NCBI GenBank assembly: GCA_024639645.1
Contig: JAHEIB010000007.1
Span: 1 to 40,232, forward strand
Direction of reading: 5' to 3'
Length of the DNA: 40,232 nucleotides
DNA from: Deltaproteobacteria bacterium
Lineage (GTDB): Bacteria > Desulfobacterota > Desulfobacteria > Desulfobacterales > B30-G6
Part shown: positions 2,399 through 39,465 of the stretch, piece by piece
Layout: every line of letters begins with the position of its first letter
How positions within the stretch are numbered: position 1 is the stretch's first letter
Position numbers and translations under genes: made by a program
The notes under the pieces: generated by a model
Told to the model about the DNA's origin: nothing
Database searches by the model: none
What the model saw: only the letters and a program-made list of their open reading frames with translations

Positions 2399-2426
2399 TC
2401 AAGTTTTATGGCTAAACTGCCGATAT
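2399..2426 (+). promoter_or_regulatory. Sigma-28 (FliA) promoter for the HD-GYP-motAB operon
   Basis: TCAAGTTT at 2399-2406 and GCCGATAT at 2419-2426, separated by 12 nt. The FliA consensus is TAAAGTTT-N11-GCCGATAA, so 6-7 of 8 positions match in each half. Transcription would start near 2433 and give a leader of about 80 nt. This fits a late (class 3) motility operon carrying the stator genes. Confidence 0.75.
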
Positions 2427-2513: not shown

Positions 2514-3674
2514 ATGAATATTCTTATTGTCGACAACGATTCAAAAGCTCTGAATACCTACGAAGAGACCCTCAGCAATAACAAATATGATCTGCTGTTG
2601 GCTCAAAGCACTGGCGCTGCCTTGGAACTGGTTCAGTCGGAGTCGGTGGATATCGTCATCACAGCCTGGGATATGCCGGAGATGGACGGTCTTGAATTCT
2701 GCCGTCGCATCTACCAGGGGGGCTTTAATACAAACATCTACACCATTCTGATCAGCGACCAGGAAACCAACATCGATCTTATTAAAAACCTTGGAACCGT
2801 TGTTAACGATTACATTCGAATGCCGGTCAGCCCCATTGATTTGACCATCCGGGTCGCCATCGGCGCCAGGGTCGCAAGACTGGAAAATCAGATAAACCGC
2901 GACAGGGATACATTGAAAAAAGAATATTATCCAACGGTTCGCATGCTGTCACACCTGGTACACGTCTACAACGAAGATCTGGGTGACCATTCCCGGCGGG
3001 TAGCGGAAGCCTCGGTTAAAATGGCCCAGCGTCATCCCGGAATTTCAACCGATGTCTACCCCACCATTCGAGCTGCCGGGTTGCTCCATGACATCGGCAT
3101 GGTTTGTGTCCCAGCCAGTATTCTGGCCAAAAAAAGAACCGAAATGACGGCAAGGGAGCGTGTTCTCTATCTGTCACACCCGATTCAGGGCGAAAGCATC
3201 CTGAACGAAAACGAGAAACTTCGCCCGGTTGCCGCACTGGTAAGGATGCATCACGAACAGTATAACGGAAAAGGATTTCCAGATACACTCGCGGGGAACC
3301 AGATTCCCCTGCCGGCAAAAATCATTGCTGCGGTTTCACTCTATGATAACCTCGTTCATCGTGGGAAGTGTTCTCTGGAAGACATTCCCACACAATTGCA
3401 GCGGTATATGGGATATCAGCTCGATCCGAATCTTTATCAGTATCTGGTCCAGCTCAATCTGGACAACATGGTGGCAGATGCCCGGAAAAAATACCAGGAA
3501 GTACGATTCGAAGATCTTACCGAAGGCATGGTTCTGGCACGAAATGTTCGCCTGAAAGGCGGTGCCATGGCCATGCCATTTCAAACCAAGATCACTGCGG
3601 CCATGATTGATAAACTGAGTCAATATAATGAAAGGGGATATATCCCCAATAAATTTTATGTATATAAATGGTAG
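2514..3674 (+). CDS. Response-regulator-like protein with degenerate REC and HD-GYP domains
   Basis: A 386-residue protein with a receiver-like domain (1-115), a linker helix, an HD-GYP-like domain (about 140-300) and a C-terminal domain of about 60 residues. The family normally hydrolyses cyclic di-GMP in response to phosphorylation. Both activities look doubtful here. The phospho-acceptor position in ITxWDMPEMDG is Ala51, although Asp7, Asp9 and Asp53 remain, and the conserved switch lysine is replaced (IRMP, Met103). In the HD domain, H192-D193, H222 and H246-H247 are kept, but HDIGK is HDIGM, GYP is GFP (254-256), and the usual D of the DxxDA motif is Ser275. It lies 10 nt upstream of motA in the same operon, so it may be a c-di-GMP-linked stator or motor regulator rather than an active enzyme. 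Confidence 0.85.
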   Translation: MNILIVDNDSKALNTYEETLSNNKYDLLLAQSTGAALELVQSESVDIVITAWDMPEMDGLEFCRRIYQGGFNTNIYTILISDQETNIDLIKNLGTVVNDYIRMPVSPIDLTIRVAIGARVARLENQINRDRDTLKKEYYPTVRMLSHLVHVYNEDLGDHSRRVAEASVKMAQRHPGISTDVYPTIRAAGLLHDIGMVCVPASILAKKRTEMTARERVLYLSHPIQGESILNENEKLRPVAALVRMHHEQYNGKGFPDTLAGNQIPLPAKIIAAVSLYDNLVHRGKCSLEDIPTQLQRYMGYQLDPNLYQYLVQLNLDNMVADARKKYQEVRFEDLTEGMVLARNVRLKGGAMAMPFQTKITAAMIDKLSQYNERGYIPNKFYVYKW

Positions 3675-3684
3675 GTAAGAACTT

Positions 3685-4473
3685 ATGGATATTGCAACCA
3701 TCATTGGATTGTTCGGCGGTTCGCTGCTGGTCCTCTCGGCCATTGTCATGGGAGGAAGCGCGGTCATGTTTATTAACATCCCTGGTTTGCTGATCGTCGT
3801 GGGAGGCACCTTGGCAGCATGCTTTGTGAAGTTTTCCCTCAAGGATGTTATCAATTCAATCACCGTGGGTATGAAAGCGTTTATATACAAAATCGACCGT
3901 CCGGAAAACATCATTCAGGAAATGGTCGATTACACCCGGGTCGCAAAGAAAGAAGGATTGATTTCCCTGGAAAAAGTCGAGACCAAAGACAAGTTTTCAG
4001 CCAAAGCCCTACAGTACCTTTCCGACGGTTTTGATGAAGGTCTGATTGAAGACATGCTCAACAAAGACATCCGCTTGACCGTCCAGCGGCATACAACCGG
4101 ACAGAATGTTTTTAAGGGCATGGGCGCGGCAGCACCTGCCTTTGGCATGATCGGAACACTCATCGGCCTGGTGCAGATGCTGGCCAACATGTCCGAACCG
4201 GGCGCCATTGGGCCCGCCATGGCAGTGGCGCTGCTGACGACCCTCTATGGTGCGGTGATTGCAAACCTTATCTGTCTGCCCCTTGCCGATAAATTGTCCC
4301 TGAGAAGTCAGCAGGAGCGCATCAATAAGAACATCGTTCTCGAATCGGCCATCGGCATCAGCCGAGGGGTTGCCCCCATGGTACTCGAAGAATCTCTCAA
4401 AATCTATCTGTCGCCTAAAGAACGCGATAGAAACGGCGCCAAAGAAAACAGCCAGGAGACCGCCAATGGGTAA
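3685..4473 (+). CDS. motA: Flagellar stator protein MotA/PomA
   Basis: A 262-residue MotA/ExbB-family protein with four hydrophobic segments (about 4-26, 31-50, 145-170 and 178-200) and a large cytoplasmic loop between segments 2 and 3 that contacts FliG. The conserved proline-rich segment GAAAPAFGMIGTLIGLVQM and the GPAMAVALLTTLYGAV segment are present. The shorter length and the NIPGLLIVVGGTLAA segment resemble sodium-type PomA more than the 295-residue E. coli MotA. It sits 10 nt after the HD-GYP gene, and its stop overlaps motB by 8 nt, so the stator pair is co-translated. Ion type is inferred from its partner. Confidence 0.95.
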   Translation: MDIATIIGLFGGSLLVLSAIVMGGSAVMFINIPGLLIVVGGTLAACFVKFSLKDVINSITVGMKAFIYKIDRPENIIQEMVDYTRVAKKEGLISLEKVETKDKFSAKALQYLSDGFDEGLIEDMLNKDIRLTVQRHTTGQNVFKGMGAAAPAFGMIGTLIGLVQMLANMSEPGAIGPAMAVALLTTLYGAVIANLICLPLADKLSLRSQQERINKNIVLESAIGISRGVAPMVLEESLKIYLSPKERDRNGAKENSQETANG

Positions 4474-5206
4474 ACCGGACCCGGAGCCAGCGGAAGTTGT
4501 CGAAGAAGGCGCCCCCTTGTGGGTCGTCACATTTGGGGATCTCATGAGTCTGCTACTCTGTTTTTTTGTTTTGCTGCTATCTTTTTCTGAGATGGACCGC
4601 CAGAAATACAAAGAGCTTTCCGGATCCATGCAGAACGCTTTTGGCGTTCAGCGAAAAAAGCAGGTGTTCGATATTCCCAAAGGGGAAAAAATCATTGCTA
4701 AAAATTTTGATCAGGAAGCCATCACCCTTTCTACAGAATCCGACATCGTCGAACAGGTCCGCAAAGCCATTCAGGACACCTTTGGAGGCGCCGGAGGAAT
4801 GATAAAATTCGATGCCGATGAATACAAGGTTCGAATCCGTCTGATGGGTGAAAGTACCTTCCATTCAGGTAGGGCCGACATCCTGGAACCCATGAAACCT
4901 GTGCTGGCAAGGGTTGCGGAAGTATTCAAGAAAAATGGAGAAAACATTATCATCGCCGGGCATACCGACAATGTGCCCCTGAAAAAAGGGGGCCGTTTCA
5001 AGACCAATCTTCAGCTATCCATGGCCCGGGCAGCCTCGGTGGCCGACTTTTTTCTATCTGAGGGTTCCATCGCGCCCGATCGCATTTCCACCATGGGTTT
5101 TGGTGAGCACCGTCCTCTGGATAGCAATGACACCCCCCAGGGCCGACAAAAAAATCGCCGAGTGGAAATCATCCTGGGCGCCATGCCCGATCTCAATCAA
5201 ATTTAA
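4466..5206 (+). CDS. motB: Flagellar stator protein MotB, PomB-like
   Basis: A 246-residue protein anchoring the stator to peptidoglycan. One membrane helix (about 17-39) carries the ion-binding aspartate Asp25 in FGDLMSLLLCFF, followed by SFSEMD and a plug-like segment. An OmpA-like peptidoglycan-binding domain follows (about 115-240, with HTDNVP and NRRVEI). The helix and the following GSM-AFGVQ and DIPKG segments match PomB of Vibrio rather than proton-type MotB (ADFMTAMMAFF), suggesting a sodium-driven motor. I chose the ATG at 4466 because AGGAGA lies 6 nt upstream; the longer frame from 4370 lies inside motA. Confidence 0.93.
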   Translation: MGKPDPEPAEVVEEGAPLWVVTFGDLMSLLLCFFVLLLSFSEMDRQKYKELSGSMQNAFGVQRKKQVFDIPKGEKIIAKNFDQEAITLSTESDIVEQVRKAIQDTFGGAGGMIKFDADEYKVRIRLMGESTFHSGRADILEPMKPVLARVAEVFKKNGENIIIAGHTDNVPLKKGGRFKTNLQLSMARAASVADFFLSEGSIAPDRISTMGFGEHRPLDSNDTPQGRQKNRRVEIILGAMPDLNQI

Positions 5207-5347: not shown

Positions 5348-5851
5348 TTACCTACGGTTTTTCGGTGGAGGCCGATGGTGTGGACGTCGATGGGGGGAAA
5401 CCCAGATATTCATGTTTTCGAGCATACGGAGAGACGCTTCATAGTTCTGCTGGTCTTTATCTCCTGAGGCAACTGTCACAATAGCGCGAATGGTCTCATC
5501 GCTGAAACCTGCCTCCTTTAGCATGAGCAGATCATTCACAGAAGTGATCTGAATGCCCTTGGGAGGAATCTCATATACAATTGGCTGGCTGTCCTGCATG
5601 AAAGAAAGATTTCTGACCATCAATCGCAGGGTATCTTCACCGATACCGGCTGCCTTCATGTCCAGTACCTCTTGAATGGTCAAAGAGACCGTTTCGATAC
5701 TCTTCTCCTGGATCATCAACTGTATCGTTTCGTCACTGACCCCGGCCTGTTTCAAACGCAGCATCTGCTCCCCGGTCATGGCTACCGCCCCGAGCGGAAT
5801 CCACAGGATAAGCAAGGATATGATCAGAAAAGTATGCCGTAATGGTGTCAT
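5348..5851 (-). CDS. Exported protein with three degenerate helical repeats
   Basis: A 167-residue protein with a clear signal peptide (hydrophobic residues 8-22, cleavage probably after AVA near residue 24). The mature part holds three copies of a motif of about 19 residues, roughly L-x-K-x-A-G-x-S-D-E-T-I-x-x-M-I, at residues 30-48, 62-79 and 108-126. The C-terminus is rich in Pro, Arg and His. The gene starts 3 nt after the flgL stop and is therefore the last gene of the flgM-flgN-flgK-flgL operon. I do not know its function. Position and export suggest an envelope role tied to hook-filament assembly, but that is inference. Confidence 0.75.
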   Translation of the reverse strand: MTPLRHTFLIISLLILWIPLGAVAMTGEQMLRLKQAGVSDETIQLMIQEKSIETVSLTIQEVLDMKAAGIGEDTLRLMVRNLSFMQDSQPIVYEIPPKGIQITSVNDLLMLKEAGFSDETIRAIVTVASGDKDQQNYEASLRMLENMNIWVSPHRRPHHRPPPKNRR

Positions 5852-15338: not shown

Positions 15339-16103
15339 TCAATTGTCAGCCATATGTCCCTTCAATCTCAATTGTCTTCTCAGTCGAAGAATCACAGACG
15401 CATGGATCTGCGACACCCTCGATTCTGTAATATCCAGGACTTTTCCTATTTCCTTCATGGTAAGTTCATCTGAGTAATAAAGGGAAATGACCATCCTCTC
15501 CTTTTCAGGCAGTTTTTCGATTTCCTGGCTGAGAGAATTGAAAACTTCCTTGAACTGAGCGTTTTCAAAAGCGTCTACAGCTCGGATATCGGCAATTTCT
15601 CTGAAAGCGGATGTCTTTTCCTTCTGACTGAGCAAACCCAGATCTTCCAAGCGTATAAAGCTGAAGCATGCTTTGGATCGAATGTCATAAACCTCTTCCA
15701 AACTCAGGCCCATTGCCTCAGCCAGCATTTCATCCCCCACATCGCCGTCGTTGTTCTGTTCCAAACGGTAGTAGGTATCTTCTAATTCCCGCACACGCTT
15801 TCTGGCTGGCCGGCTGAGATAATCTCTTGCACGCAGTTCGCTGAGCACAGCTCCCCGAACCCGGACCTGGGCATAGGTCATAAACGTATTTTCCCGCGAA
15901 GGATCGTAACGCTCTGCAGACTGGATGAGCCCGATAATACCGGCATTAATCAAATCATCTCTATCGACACTCACCGGCAGATGGGCGGCAATCCTCTGAA
16001 CAATCCGCTTCACCTGAGGCAGATGTTCAAGGATCAGCGCATCTCTATCCTGGCGATCATCCCCGGGATCGTATTCTGTTCGGGTTTTTGCAAATCCTGC
16101 CAT
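15339..16103 (-). CDS. fliA: RNA polymerase sigma factor FliA (sigma-28, WhiG family)
   Basis: A 254-residue sigma factor with region 2 (SVDRDDLINAGIIGLIQSAERYDPSRENTFMTYAQVRVRGAVLSELRARDYLSR, about 45-98), region 3 and region 4 (LPEKERMVISLYYSDELTMKEIGKVLDITESRVSQIHASVILRLRRQL). It directs the late motility promoters, including those at 2399-2426 and 9121-9147, and is held by FlgM. An AGGAG lies about 11 nt before the ATG. It follows flhG by 53 nt, with a hairpin (16132-16155) in the gap. Confidence 0.96.
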   Translation of the reverse strand: MAGFAKTRTEYDPGDDRQDRDALILEHLPQVKRIVQRIAAHLPVSVDRDDLINAGIIGLIQSAERYDPSRENTFMTYAQVRVRGAVLSELRARDYLSRPARKRVRELEDTYYRLEQNNDGDVGDEMLAEAMGLSLEEVYDIRSKACFSFIRLEDLGLLSQKEKTSAFREIADIRAVDAFENAQFKEVFNSLSQEIEKLPEKERMVISLYYSDELTMKEIGKVLDITESRVSQIHASVILRLRRQLRLKGHMADN

Positions 16104-36461: not shown

Positions 36462-36893
36462 CTATTTATTCCCTCCCTGGATTATATTTCTGAGTGATTG
36501 AAATTTTTTGGCGACGATCTGGGCGGAAAGGGAATACATCAGACTGTTCTCAGCCATACCCGCCATCTCCCGATCCAGATCCACTGTATTGCCGTCGCGC
36601 CTTTCCACATGGCGTCCGTTTCCGTCGTCAGATCGAACAGTCGTTAGACGGATCGGGTTTCTCTGTGGTTCTATATGGCCTGCCTGGGTGGTTTCCATAC
36701 GAACACCATTTCCCATCCCTGTGGACCGGTCCAGTTTCTTCAACTCGTCTTCCACCATGACATCAAAGGCCTTGTAATTCGGCGTGTCGATGTTGGCCAC
36801 ATTGGAAACAATGGCGCTATGTTTGCTGGAGCGTAAATCAAGCGATCGCTCCAAAAAGGTAATTGTCTGATTGAAAATACCACCTGAACCCAT
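36462..36893 (-). CDS. flgB: Flagellar proximal rod protein FlgB
   Basis: A 143-residue rod protein: TITFLERSLDLRSSKHSAIVSNVANIDTPNYKAFDVMVEDELKKL at the N-terminus and NTVDLDREMAGMAENSLMYSLSAQIVAKKFQSLRNIIQGG at the C-terminus. I chose ATG 36893, which has AAAGGAG 5 nt upstream; the longer frame from 36983 would extend across the sigma-54 promoter. First gene of the large flgB-to-flgE operon. Confidence 0.97.
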   Translation of the reverse strand: MGSGGIFNQTITFLERSLDLRSSKHSAIVSNVANIDTPNYKAFDVMVEDELKKLDRSTGMGNGVRMETTQAGHIEPQRNPIRLTTVRSDDGNGRHVERRDGNTVDLDREMAGMAENSLMYSLSAQIVAKKFQSLRNIIQGGNK

Positions 36894-36933
36894 GTGTTCT
36901 CCTTTTGATACGGTTAACGCCGGCTCTTTTAAT

Positions 36934-36949
36934 TGCAATTGCCATACCA
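36934..36949 (-). promoter_or_regulatory. Sigma-54 promoter for the flgB operon
   Basis: On the minus strand TGGTATGGCAATTGCA: GG and GC separated by exactly 10 nt, with TTGCA at -12. Predicted start near 36923, giving a leader of about 30 nt. It lies inside the longer alternative flgB frame, supporting the shorter start. Confidence 0.82.
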
Positions 36950-37056
36950 GAGTTGAGCATGGATCCTGGCATGAAAGTAACATATTGATATAATGTAGTT
37001 AATATTATTTATAATTGGCAAAATTCGATTTTGGAGGCAGTATAAACACATGGGGG

Positions 37057-37084: not shown

Positions 37085-38491
37085 TCACGCGACTGTTTTT
37101 GCCACATGGGATTTATGATTGGGAATGTCGCGCTCATGATCTCGCGATATGCCATATTCCCGAAGCCGGTTACGGAGTGTCCGGAGACTGATTCCCAAAC
37201 GCTCGGCCGTCCGGGTACGATTGTTATGACAGGCTTTGAGGGTATCCAGGATAAGCGCCATCTCCATTTCTTTTATGGTTGTGCCTGAGGACGCGAGATT
37301 ATTTTTCTTAGATTTTCCCACCGTGTCGACAAAATTAAGATGCTCCGGAAGCATGGTATCGCCGTTTCCGATAAGGACGGCCCTTTCCACCACGTTTTCC
37401 AGTTCACGAACATTGCCCGGCCATGGGTGGGATGCCAGATAATCAAGGGCAGCCGGTGCCGTTTTTATCATCCGCCGGTTGTTGATCAAACTGTATTTTT
37501 TTAAAAAGAACCTTACCAGAAGGGGGATGTCTTTTTTTCTTTCCCGCAAGGGGGGCAATGTCACGGGCAGCACATTCAAGCGGTAGAACAGATCTTCTCT
37601 GAAACGATTCTCCTGGACGGCCTTGACAAGATTCTGGTTGCTGATGGCGATAATCCGCACGTCGATGGCCCGGGGCTGTTGTCCGCCTACACGGTCGATT
37701 TCCCGTTCTTGAAGCACCCGCAGTATCTTGGCCTGCATATTGAGGGTCAGTTCGCTCACCTCATCGAGCAGGAGTGTGCCTTGATCGGCAAGTTCGAACC
37801 GGCCCACCTTGCGTGTAAAAGCACCGGTAAAAGCACCTCTCTCATAGCCAAACAATTCGCTCTCCGCAAGCGTCTCCTGCAGAGCTGCACAATTAATCGC
37901 CACCAAAGGACCTGTTTTGCGGCGACTTTCCTGATGGATGAATGATGCCAGCAATTCCTTTCCGGTGCCGTTTTCGCCAAGGATCAGAATGGTGGCATCA
38001 CTGTCTGCTACACGTCTGGCCAGAGCCAGAACATCCATCATGCATGCGTCCTGGGTAATGATGGTTTTGTTTTTTAAATTGTTTTCTATTTCAGAATTCC
38101 GGCACGACACTCTCTCTGGATGCCCGCTGGCATCACATACCTTCTGAACGGTGGCTGTCAGGGTTTCCAGGGAAAACGGTTTGAGGAGAAAATCCGAAGC
38201 ACCGGCCTTCATTGCCTCCACAGCGCGGTTGATGGATCCATAGGCGGTCATCATGATGACAGGAATCTTCGGAGACACGGCCTTGACCCCCTGAAGCACC
38301 TGCATACCCGACATCTCCGGCATACGCATATCCGTAATGACCAACCCGAATTTCTCTTCCTTGAATTTTTTAAGACCTTCCGCGCCATTGGCGGCACACT
38401 GAACATCACAGCCGTTCTTTTTCAGGGCATGCGTCAGGGCCAGCTGCATATCAGGCTCATCATCAATCACCAGAACTGAATCAAACTGCAT
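37085..38491 (-). CDS. flrC: Sigma-54-dependent response regulator, FlrC/FleR-like
   Basis: A 468-residue activator with an intact receiver (Asp10, Asp11, phospho-acceptor Asp54, Thr82, Lys104), an AAA+ domain with Walker A GENGTGKE (172-179), GAFTGA (219-224) that contacts sigma-54, and LLLDEVSE, and a C-terminal Fis-type helix-turn-helix (TRTAERLGISLRTLRNRLREYG). In Vibrio and Pseudomonas such proteins drive the middle flagellar genes. It starts at ATG 38491, overlapping the kinase stop (TAATG) with AAGGAGG upstream. It most likely acts on the three sigma-54 promoters found here. The family name is inferred from context. Confidence 0.9.
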   Translation of the reverse strand: MQFDSVLVIDDEPDMQLALTHALKKNGCDVQCAANGAEGLKKFKEEKFGLVITDMRMPEMSGMQVLQGVKAVSPKIPVIMMTAYGSINRAVEAMKAGASDFLLKPFSLETLTATVQKVCDASGHPERVSCRNSEIENNLKNKTIITQDACMMDVLALARRVADSDATILILGENGTGKELLASFIHQESRRKTGPLVAINCAALQETLAESELFGYERGAFTGAFTRKVGRFELADQGTLLLDEVSELTLNMQAKILRVLQEREIDRVGGQQPRAIDVRIIAISNQNLVKAVQENRFREDLFYRLNVLPVTLPPLRERKKDIPLLVRFFLKKYSLINNRRMIKTAPAALDYLASHPWPGNVRELENVVERAVLIGNGDTMLPEHLNFVDTVGKSKKNNLASSGTTIKEMEMALILDTLKACHNNRTRTAERLGISLRTLRNRLREYGISRDHERDIPNHKSHVAKTVA

Positions 38492-39465
38492 TATGCCGAC
38501 ACCTCCTTTTCCATAACCGGCACAGATACATCTTCCTGCGCTGCCGATGCATCGGCACACAAGGGCAAGCCGATGGAAAACATGGTTCCTTCTCCTAGGG
38601 TACTCGAAACATCAATGATACCGCCATGCATCTGGACAATGCTGTGAACAATGGAAAGACCCAGACCGGTTCCCCTTTCTTTGGTTGTGAAAAAAGGGTC
38701 GAATATTTTTGAAACACTGCCAGGATCGATCCCGGCACCGCTGTCTGAAATCCGGATTTCTGCCAATGCCGACCGTCCAGCATTCGTCATGGCACCTTGA
38801 ACTGTCGATATACAGAGGACACCGCCACCCGGCATGCTCTGGATCGCATTCAGGATGATATTCAGACAGACCTGTTTAATGAGCTCGACATCACCATTTA
38901 TAAACAGGGGCCTGGGACCATATTCCAGCTTGACATCGACGCCGTTCTCCTTGTCGGCAAGGTGCTTCATAAAAAACAGGGAGTCGTCCAGGGCTTCATA
39001 AATATCAAATCGTTCAAATCGGCTGGCTTCTTCGGGTCTGACAAATTGAAGCAGATTGGCGATAATGGCCTCAATACTCTTGACACCGGAAGAAATTCTT
39101 TCCGCAAGCAGCTGCAGGTCCGCTTGCCCTTCCAGGGAGGCTTGGAGACTGGTGGCAAACAGCTCGATGCTTCCCAATGGGTTTCGAATCTCATGCGCAA
39201 TTTTAGCGGCCATTTCACCCATTGCAGCCAGCCGGTCTTTCCGCCGGGAACGTTCGGGTTCGTGTTTCCGACCGGCGACGTTTTTCAGAACGACAACCGA
39301 GCCGTCACGCACCTTTGTCCGTCCCATAACCGGTGAAAAATCATTGTCAATTGGAAAACCATGGGTGCTGCTGTTTGAGGGTTTCATCACGTTTTCCATA
39401 TGCCTTTTATCATCATTAAAATACATGACCGTCAAGTTCAGGTGTATCAGGGGAAACAATAGCAA
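38491..39465 (-). CDS. Histidine kinase, FlrB/FleS-like, lacking most of its PAS domain
   Basis: Up to 324 residues. HisKA with AAKIAHEIRNPLG (His91 counted from 39465) and HATPase with INLN-type LNIILNAIQSM, DSGAGI and GTGLGLSIV. Upstream there is only the tail of a PAS/PAC-like unit (GSVVVLKNVAGRKHE) leading into the usual RKDRLAAMGEMA. FlrB/FleS kinases normally carry a full PAS domain of about 100 residues ahead of this point. The start is uncertain: TTG 39465 is the outer limit, but ATGs at 39426, 39399 and 39387 are possible. Coupled to the activator gene; the pair should control the sigma-54 flagellar promoters. Confidence 0.88.
   Translation of the reverse strand: MLLFPLIHLNLTVMYFNDDKRHMENVMKPSNSSTHGFPIDNDFSPVMGRTKVRDGSVVVLKNVAGRKHEPERSRRKDRLAAMGEMAAKIAHEIRNPLGSIELFATSLQASLEGQADLQLLAERISSGVKSIEAIIANLLQFVRPEEASRFERFDIYEALDDSLFFMKHLADKENGVDVKLEYGPRPLFINGDVELIKQVCLNIILNAIQSMPGGGVLCISTVQGAMTNAGRSALAEIRISDSGAGIDPGSVSKIFDPFFTTKERGTGLGLSIVHSIVQMHGGIIDVSSTLGEGTMFSIGLPLCADASAAQEDVSVPVMEKEVSA

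Follow-up and report, generated by a model that had tools for sequence, protein, structure and literature searches.

A receiver and degenerate HD-GYP protein encoded in front of motAB in Desulfobacterales: a candidate accessory regulator of one flagellar stator type

The H-motA-motB locus

The window, meaning the whole stretch of DNA analysed here, comprises 40,232 nucleotides (nt) of Deltaproteobacteria bacterium (assembly GCA_024639645.1, contig JAHEIB010000007.1, positions 1-40,232, forward strand). It carries a large part of a flagellar gene cluster, including the gene for a FliA-type sigma factor. The subject of this report is the protein of 386 amino acids (aa) encoded by the open reading frame (ORF) at 2514-3674 on the plus strand, referred to as H. 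The start of motA lies 10 nt past the stop of H, and the last bases of motA are shared with the start of motB. The relevant features are:

2399..2426, plus strand: sigma-28 (FliA)-like promoter, TCAAGTTT-N12-GCCGATAT, located 5' of H
2514..3674, plus strand: H, consisting of a receiver, a helical linker, a degenerate HD-GYP domain and a small C-terminal domain (ORF, Pfam, structural model)
2514..2858, plus strand: receiver of H, residues 1-115, a pseudo-receiver (Pfam, ortholog alignment, codons, fold matches)
2832..2969, plus strand: long linker helix, residues 107-152 (DSSP of the model; predicted local distance difference test score, pLDDT, low around 120-140)
2931..3443, plus strand: degenerate HD-GYP domain, residues about 140-310, with metal ligands kept, HDIGM, NGKGFP, S275 and a short loop (Pfam, alignment, matches to 4r8z, 4mcw and 9rbz)
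3486..3671, plus strand: small C-terminal domain, residues 325-386, LxxLxxGMVLA...KxGA (alignment, separate prediction)
3685..4473, plus strand: motA, PomA-like stator subunit (PF01618, 90.5 bits)
4466..5206, plus strand: motB, MotB_plug and OmpA (Pfam; ATG at 4466)
15339..16103, minus strand: FliA-type sigma factor (Sigma70_r2/r4)

The PomA model gives 310.6 bits on the product of motA, which is under its cut-off of 341. Among 389 genomes of the order, 35 with a full-length relative were found at E <= 1e-90, and a search of 395 genomes across the phylum added one ortholog (G457); the resulting set of 36, in which the H of the window is counted, is drawn from Desulfobacterales except for a single genome from elsewhere. 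In all 36, H immediately precedes motA on the same strand. The gap between the two genes does not exceed about 30 nt in 29 orthologs and measures 74-349 nt in the other 7. The reading frame is open in every ortholog, and between the H of the window and its nearest ortholog dN is 0.157 and dS is 2.85, the latter being saturated.

This layout suggests that H heads a sigma-28-type operon, H-motA-motB. Strict matches to the sigma-28-like pattern number two in the whole window, that at 2399-2426 being one, and a site of this kind stands 5' of H in 26/36 orthologs (shuffle p <= 0.03). From its flagellar context the sigma factor at 15339-16103 is presumably FliA itself, and it is the likely user of the promoter at 2399. 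An earlier reading of this DNA, made from the sequence only, had H co-transcribed with motAB from a sigma-28-like promoter and dedicated to the stator operon. The dedication is borne out by the 36 orthologs; of the former claim, the promoter site, the arrangement of the genes and the 10-nt gap hold, while co-transcription is suggested by the layout.

Receiver and HD-GYP domains of H

Two Pfam matches of H exceed their cut-offs, Response_reg over residues 3-114 and HD_5 over residues 144-305. An AlphaFold model of the protein has a mean pLDDT of 85.4 and a predicted template modelling score (pTM) of 0.54, and is good inside the domains. The best Foldseek matches to this model are the HD-GYP structures 4r8z and 4mcw, plus many receivers. 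Alignment to 4mcw by VIA-align gives Z 19.6 over 184 residues (root mean square deviation 3.0), and the receiver fold matches 2jk1 with Z 21.6. The structural comparison was filled mainly by receiver domains, and the absence of a family from it is uninformative. The C-terminal domain, predicted alone, has no match in the PDB below E 0.001.

In the receiver, the position of the phospho-acceptor is occupied by A51 (codon GCC, 2664-2666), with D53 (GAT) nearby, and that of the switch lysine by M103 (ATG, 2820-2822). The codons confirm what the sequence-only reading had reported for these two sites; it had overlooked that the second acidic residue is also replaced, by N8. A pseudo-receiver has been defined by loss of the phospho-acceptor Asp and/or other active-site residues (PMC12632262), and A51, M103 and N8 place the receiver of H within that definition. 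With A51 in place of Asp, phosphorylation at the usual residue is impossible, as the sequence-only reading had proposed. The altered receiver is a feature of a minority: Asp51 and Lys103 are both present in 29/36 orthologs, and both are missing in the same 7/36 (G000 and G002; G152, G306, G225, G234 and G311). Ala51 itself occurs in 3/36 and Met103 in 1/36. The Ala and Met changes are ruled out as a trait that these stator operons have in common, since 29/36 orthologs next to motAB have Asp and Lys. The joint loss maps to two separate clades, the window being in one of them, and requires two changes on the tree, a number forced by its starred branches. Because the pair is kept together in 29 members and lost together in 7, it is probably used where it is kept. 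In the second receiver-lost clade the mean identity of the receiver is 31%, compared with 51% among the intact ones; the HD-GYP part shows no drift, with 60% against 56%.

The HD-GYP domain presents a different pattern, which is family-wide. H retains the metal ligands H159, H192-D193, H222 and H246-H247. It has NGKGFP where DGxGYP is expected, and S275 marks the loss of the first Asp of DxxDA (SxxDN). The codons for M196 (ATG, in HDIGM), N251 (AAC), F255 (TTT) and S275 (TCA) are unambiguous. M196, F255 and S275 agree with the losses described in the sequence-only reading, namely those of the HDxGK lysine, the GYP tyrosine and one Asp of DxxDA, with HD and HH kept; N251 escaped it, as did a loop that is 3-4 residues shorter and has no RxY[RK].

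Among the orthologs, H159, H222, H246 and H247 are found in 36/36, and H192 and D193 in 35/36. Of the 171 columns in the domain, no more than 30 reach a conservation of 34/36 or better, and all six ligands fall among those 30 (hypergeometric P 2e-5). Of the other motifs little is left. The position of the HDxGK lysine is Met in 33/36 and Lys in 0/36; that of the DGxGYP Asp is Asn in 36/36; that of the GYP tyrosine is Phe in 34/36 and Tyr in 2/36; and that of the last metal Asp is Ser in 31/36 and Asp in 2/36. The RxY[RK] nucleotide loop was found in 0/36. For comparison, seven HD_5 paralogs from the genome of the window were tried, and 4/4 of those that could be parsed by pattern have both HDxGK and R.Y[RK]. 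In one ortholog (L089, in G183) HD is changed to K-E, and the gene still stands in front of motA.

Taken against the make-up of a catalytic HD-GYP domain, H thus has the metal ligands and lacks the HDxGK lysine, the GYP tyrosine, the first Asp of DxxDA and RxY[RK]; phosphodiesterase activity is very unlikely. As the same 7/36 orthologs lose Asp51 and Lys103 and the HD-GYP changes run through the family, the changes in H are due neither to chance nor to sequencing error. As a rule, members of the family have a phosphorylatable receiver joined to a degenerate HD-GYP domain, with the loss of the receiver site forming a layer that is younger on the tree than the degeneracy of the HD-GYP domain.

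Relatives and neighbours of H

The type of motA that accompanies H, defined at E <= 1e-92, occurs in 57/389 genomes, and H precedes it in 35 of these. A requirement of this stator for H is ruled out by the remaining 22/57 genomes, which have the motA type and no H upstream; at three of these loci (G117, G141 and G197) only 1355, 913 and 435 nt upstream are covered. From this distribution H appears to be accessory, not core, to its stator type. Three of the 22 (L201 in G249, L202 in G261 and L203 in G333) have, where H would be expected, a divergent gene with a receiver that fits the H-family profile at 142-148 bits, as if H had been lost and a neighbour kept.

A second family of HD-GYP-like genes, more degenerate than that of H, stands in front of another type of motA, about 45% identical to the first. 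It was found in 6/17 loci, these 17 being one per genome, with most second copies outside the set; a seventh case is the second locus of G043. Each of the seven genes (L126, L130, L127, L124, L133, L129 and L204) immediately precedes motA. In this family HD and HH are changed (HE in G047, G050, G016, G038 and G043; YR in G029; HL in G023), and several members are without a receiver or without its Asp. Because HD and HH are altered here, selection beside stators would seem to keep something other than catalysis.

Elsewhere in the phylum, receiver-HD-GYP proteins of about 420 aa are about 30% identical to H (L137-L141, L143, L146 and L149). Those translated (L137, L138, L140, L146 and L149) have Leu or Phe at the position of the HDxGK lysine and retain HD and HH. 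No motA was found in the examined loci of this group.

Genes for histidine kinases adjoin H in at least 11/36 loci, some of which have little flanking sequence; nine resemble the receiver-kinase L075 and two the kinase-receiver L077. No such gene stands beside H in the window, where the kinase at 38491-39465 is far from H and adjoins a gene for a sigma-54 regulator. Loss of a local kinase was considered as an explanation for the loss of the receiver site, and was set aside, as each of the five receiver-lost members in the second clade still has a kinase gene beside H.

Two further ORFs of the window lie on the minus strand. That at 5348-5851 (167 aa), between motB and the flgL-side genes, has repeated LKQAGVSDETIQLMI-like segments and no Pfam match above cut-off. 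That at 36462-36983 (173 aa), inside the flagellar cluster, is likewise without a match in the Pfam scan.

Possible roles of H

The reading that we tentatively favour, at a little short of an even chance, is that, in Desulfobacterales, H is an accessory regulator that does not catalyse and is dedicated to a single type of PomA-like stator. As the first gene of the operon, H would be made together with the stator, to judge from the layout. In most members, a phosphorylatable receiver would set the conformation of the HD-GYP-fold domain through the long helix. This domain may bind metal and is predicted not to catalyse; together with the small C-terminal domain it could form a protein-interaction surface for the stator or for a partner bound to the motor, and that surface would set the engagement of the stator. 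In the lineage of the window, where the phosphorylation input is lost, H may be locked in one state, or its control may lie in its amount or in some other ligand. The adjacency, the residues and their conservation are direct observations; from them we infer the contact of H with the motor, the sign of its effect and any ligand.

Several observations weigh against this reading. The kept metal ligands may point to an enzyme activity of another kind or to a sensor, and the Arg or Lys found at position 283 in 32/36 orthologs could still give one phosphate contact. In 10/36 orthologs there is no clear promoter match at shuffle p <= 0.03 (one of the ten, G119, is covered by 83 nt upstream only), and in 22 genomes this motA type is not preceded by H. 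Kinase genes still stand beside H in all 5 receiver-lost orthologs of the second clade, so H need not be the target of the kinase. Finally, position in an operon is by itself insufficient proof of a physical partner of the stator.

YcgR, FlgZ and MotI, which regulate stators as accessory proteins, are PilZ proteins. Their likeness to H is one of functional analogy only, and H differs in that a Pfam scan returned Response_reg, HD_5 and HD only, with no PilZ domain. Among the window products scanned there is no PilZ gene, while the whole genome has 17 PilZ matches. It is conceivable, if unlikely, that H is a non-hydrolysing receptor for cyclic di-guanosine monophosphate (c-di-GMP) that brakes or releases the stator like DvhD or YcgR. 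Stators are under c-di-GMP control in other bacteria (PMC13432727), and residue 283 is compatible with such a role. DvhD of Desulfovibrio vulgaris, in which an HD-GYP domain acts as a pure c-di-GMP receptor (PMC13090378; PDB 9rbz, 9rc0), shares with H the fold, the non-catalytic state and a sulfate-reducing host. Its ligand contacts include K582 at the position of the HDxGK lysine, Y621 of GYP, R650 and Y652 (PMC13090378). In H, M196 and F255 align with the first two; R650 and Y652 fall in an unaligned loop that is 3-4 residues shorter in H and without RxY, an equivalence made by loop length and not by alignment. H thus has none of the lysine, the GYP tyrosine, or the Arg and Tyr of the loop. 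Moreover, DvhD is a membrane receptor of an adhesin system which keeps its nucleotide contacts and has lost the HD and HH metal motifs (PMC13090378), whereas H shows the opposite. In the second stator-linked family HD and HH are altered too. The idea of a c-di-GMP sensor, put forward in the sequence-only reading, is weakened by these substitutions and by the kept ligands.

No better supported is the proposal that H acts allosterically with a genuine phosphodiesterase or diguanylate cyclase, its link to the stator being mere co-regulation of motility. HnoD of Shewanella oneidensis, which belongs to a nitric-oxide circuit and not to a stator operon, resembles H in joining a receiver to a degenerate HD-GYP domain. 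A review describes HnoD as fine-tuning the phosphodiesterase HnoB by inhibition (PMC8846402). Of the named families, NosR comes nearest to H. Its model (NF053512) aligns with residues 121-376 of H at 224.1 bits, below the curated cut-off of 400, and matches 21/21 of the A1 members scanned; at E <= 1e-20 no other model matches as many. NosR of B. pseudomallei likewise combines a receiver with a degenerate HD-GYP domain (HG-GTP); it is phosphorylated by NosK and has been proposed to act on another enzyme (PMC12570481). It keeps the phospho-acceptor and sits with nosP/nosK (PMC12570481), whereas H keeps HD, has lost the receiver site and has motAB as its partner, the genes downstream being motA and motB. 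In favour of a partner enzyme, the same genome encodes further HD_5 proteins. Against such a partner, the conserved unit contains no phosphodiesterase or cyclase gene, motA adjoins H in 36/36, and the second degenerate family also precedes a motA, of another type.

It is less probable still that the HD-GYP fold has become a metal-centre sensor (for example di-iron) of redox state or oxygen that directly gates the flagellar stator of anaerobes. The idea arises because five His and one Asp are nearly always kept, while the parts that bind or cut c-di-GMP are gone. Another known protein that resembles H in part, Bd1817 of Bdellovibrio, is an HD-GYP protein that lacks the GYP tyrosine and keeps its metal site; we know of no receiver in it and of no stator operon around it. 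The sequence match of Bd1817 (PDB 3tm8) to H is weak.

The chance that H is still an enzyme, a weak phosphodiesterase or another metal-dependent phosphohydrolase, is slight. The ligands H159, H192-D193, H222 and H246-H247, kept in 35-36/36, would speak for it; the lysine and the nucleotide loop are lost in 36/36 and the last metal Asp in 34/36, and G183 has lost HD (K-E) with the gene still beside motA. Least credible of all is a decaying hitchhiker gene without function: H is missing in 22/57 genomes with the same motA type and receivers without the Asp evolve faster (31% vs 51% mean identity), but the ORF is open in 36/36, dN is low against a saturated dS, and the strict columns of the HD-GYP fold and the promoter are retained.

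Signalling control of stators is mainly known through PilZ proteins. In the literature searched, a limited body that leaves absence from print unproven, no description of an HD-GYP gene in a motAB operon was found. A receiver with a dead HD-GYP domain in front of motAB in many Desulfobacterales, together with the second, more degraded family before another motA type, points to an unstudied link by which sulfate reducers couple motor torque to two-component signalling. As natural experiments, the two clades in which the receiver Asp and Lys were lost together may reveal how response regulators come to work without phosphorylation. Should the metal-centre sensor prove true, stator-linked HD-GYP proteins would form a new class of motor regulators, one in which the phosphorylation input has been shed repeatedly.
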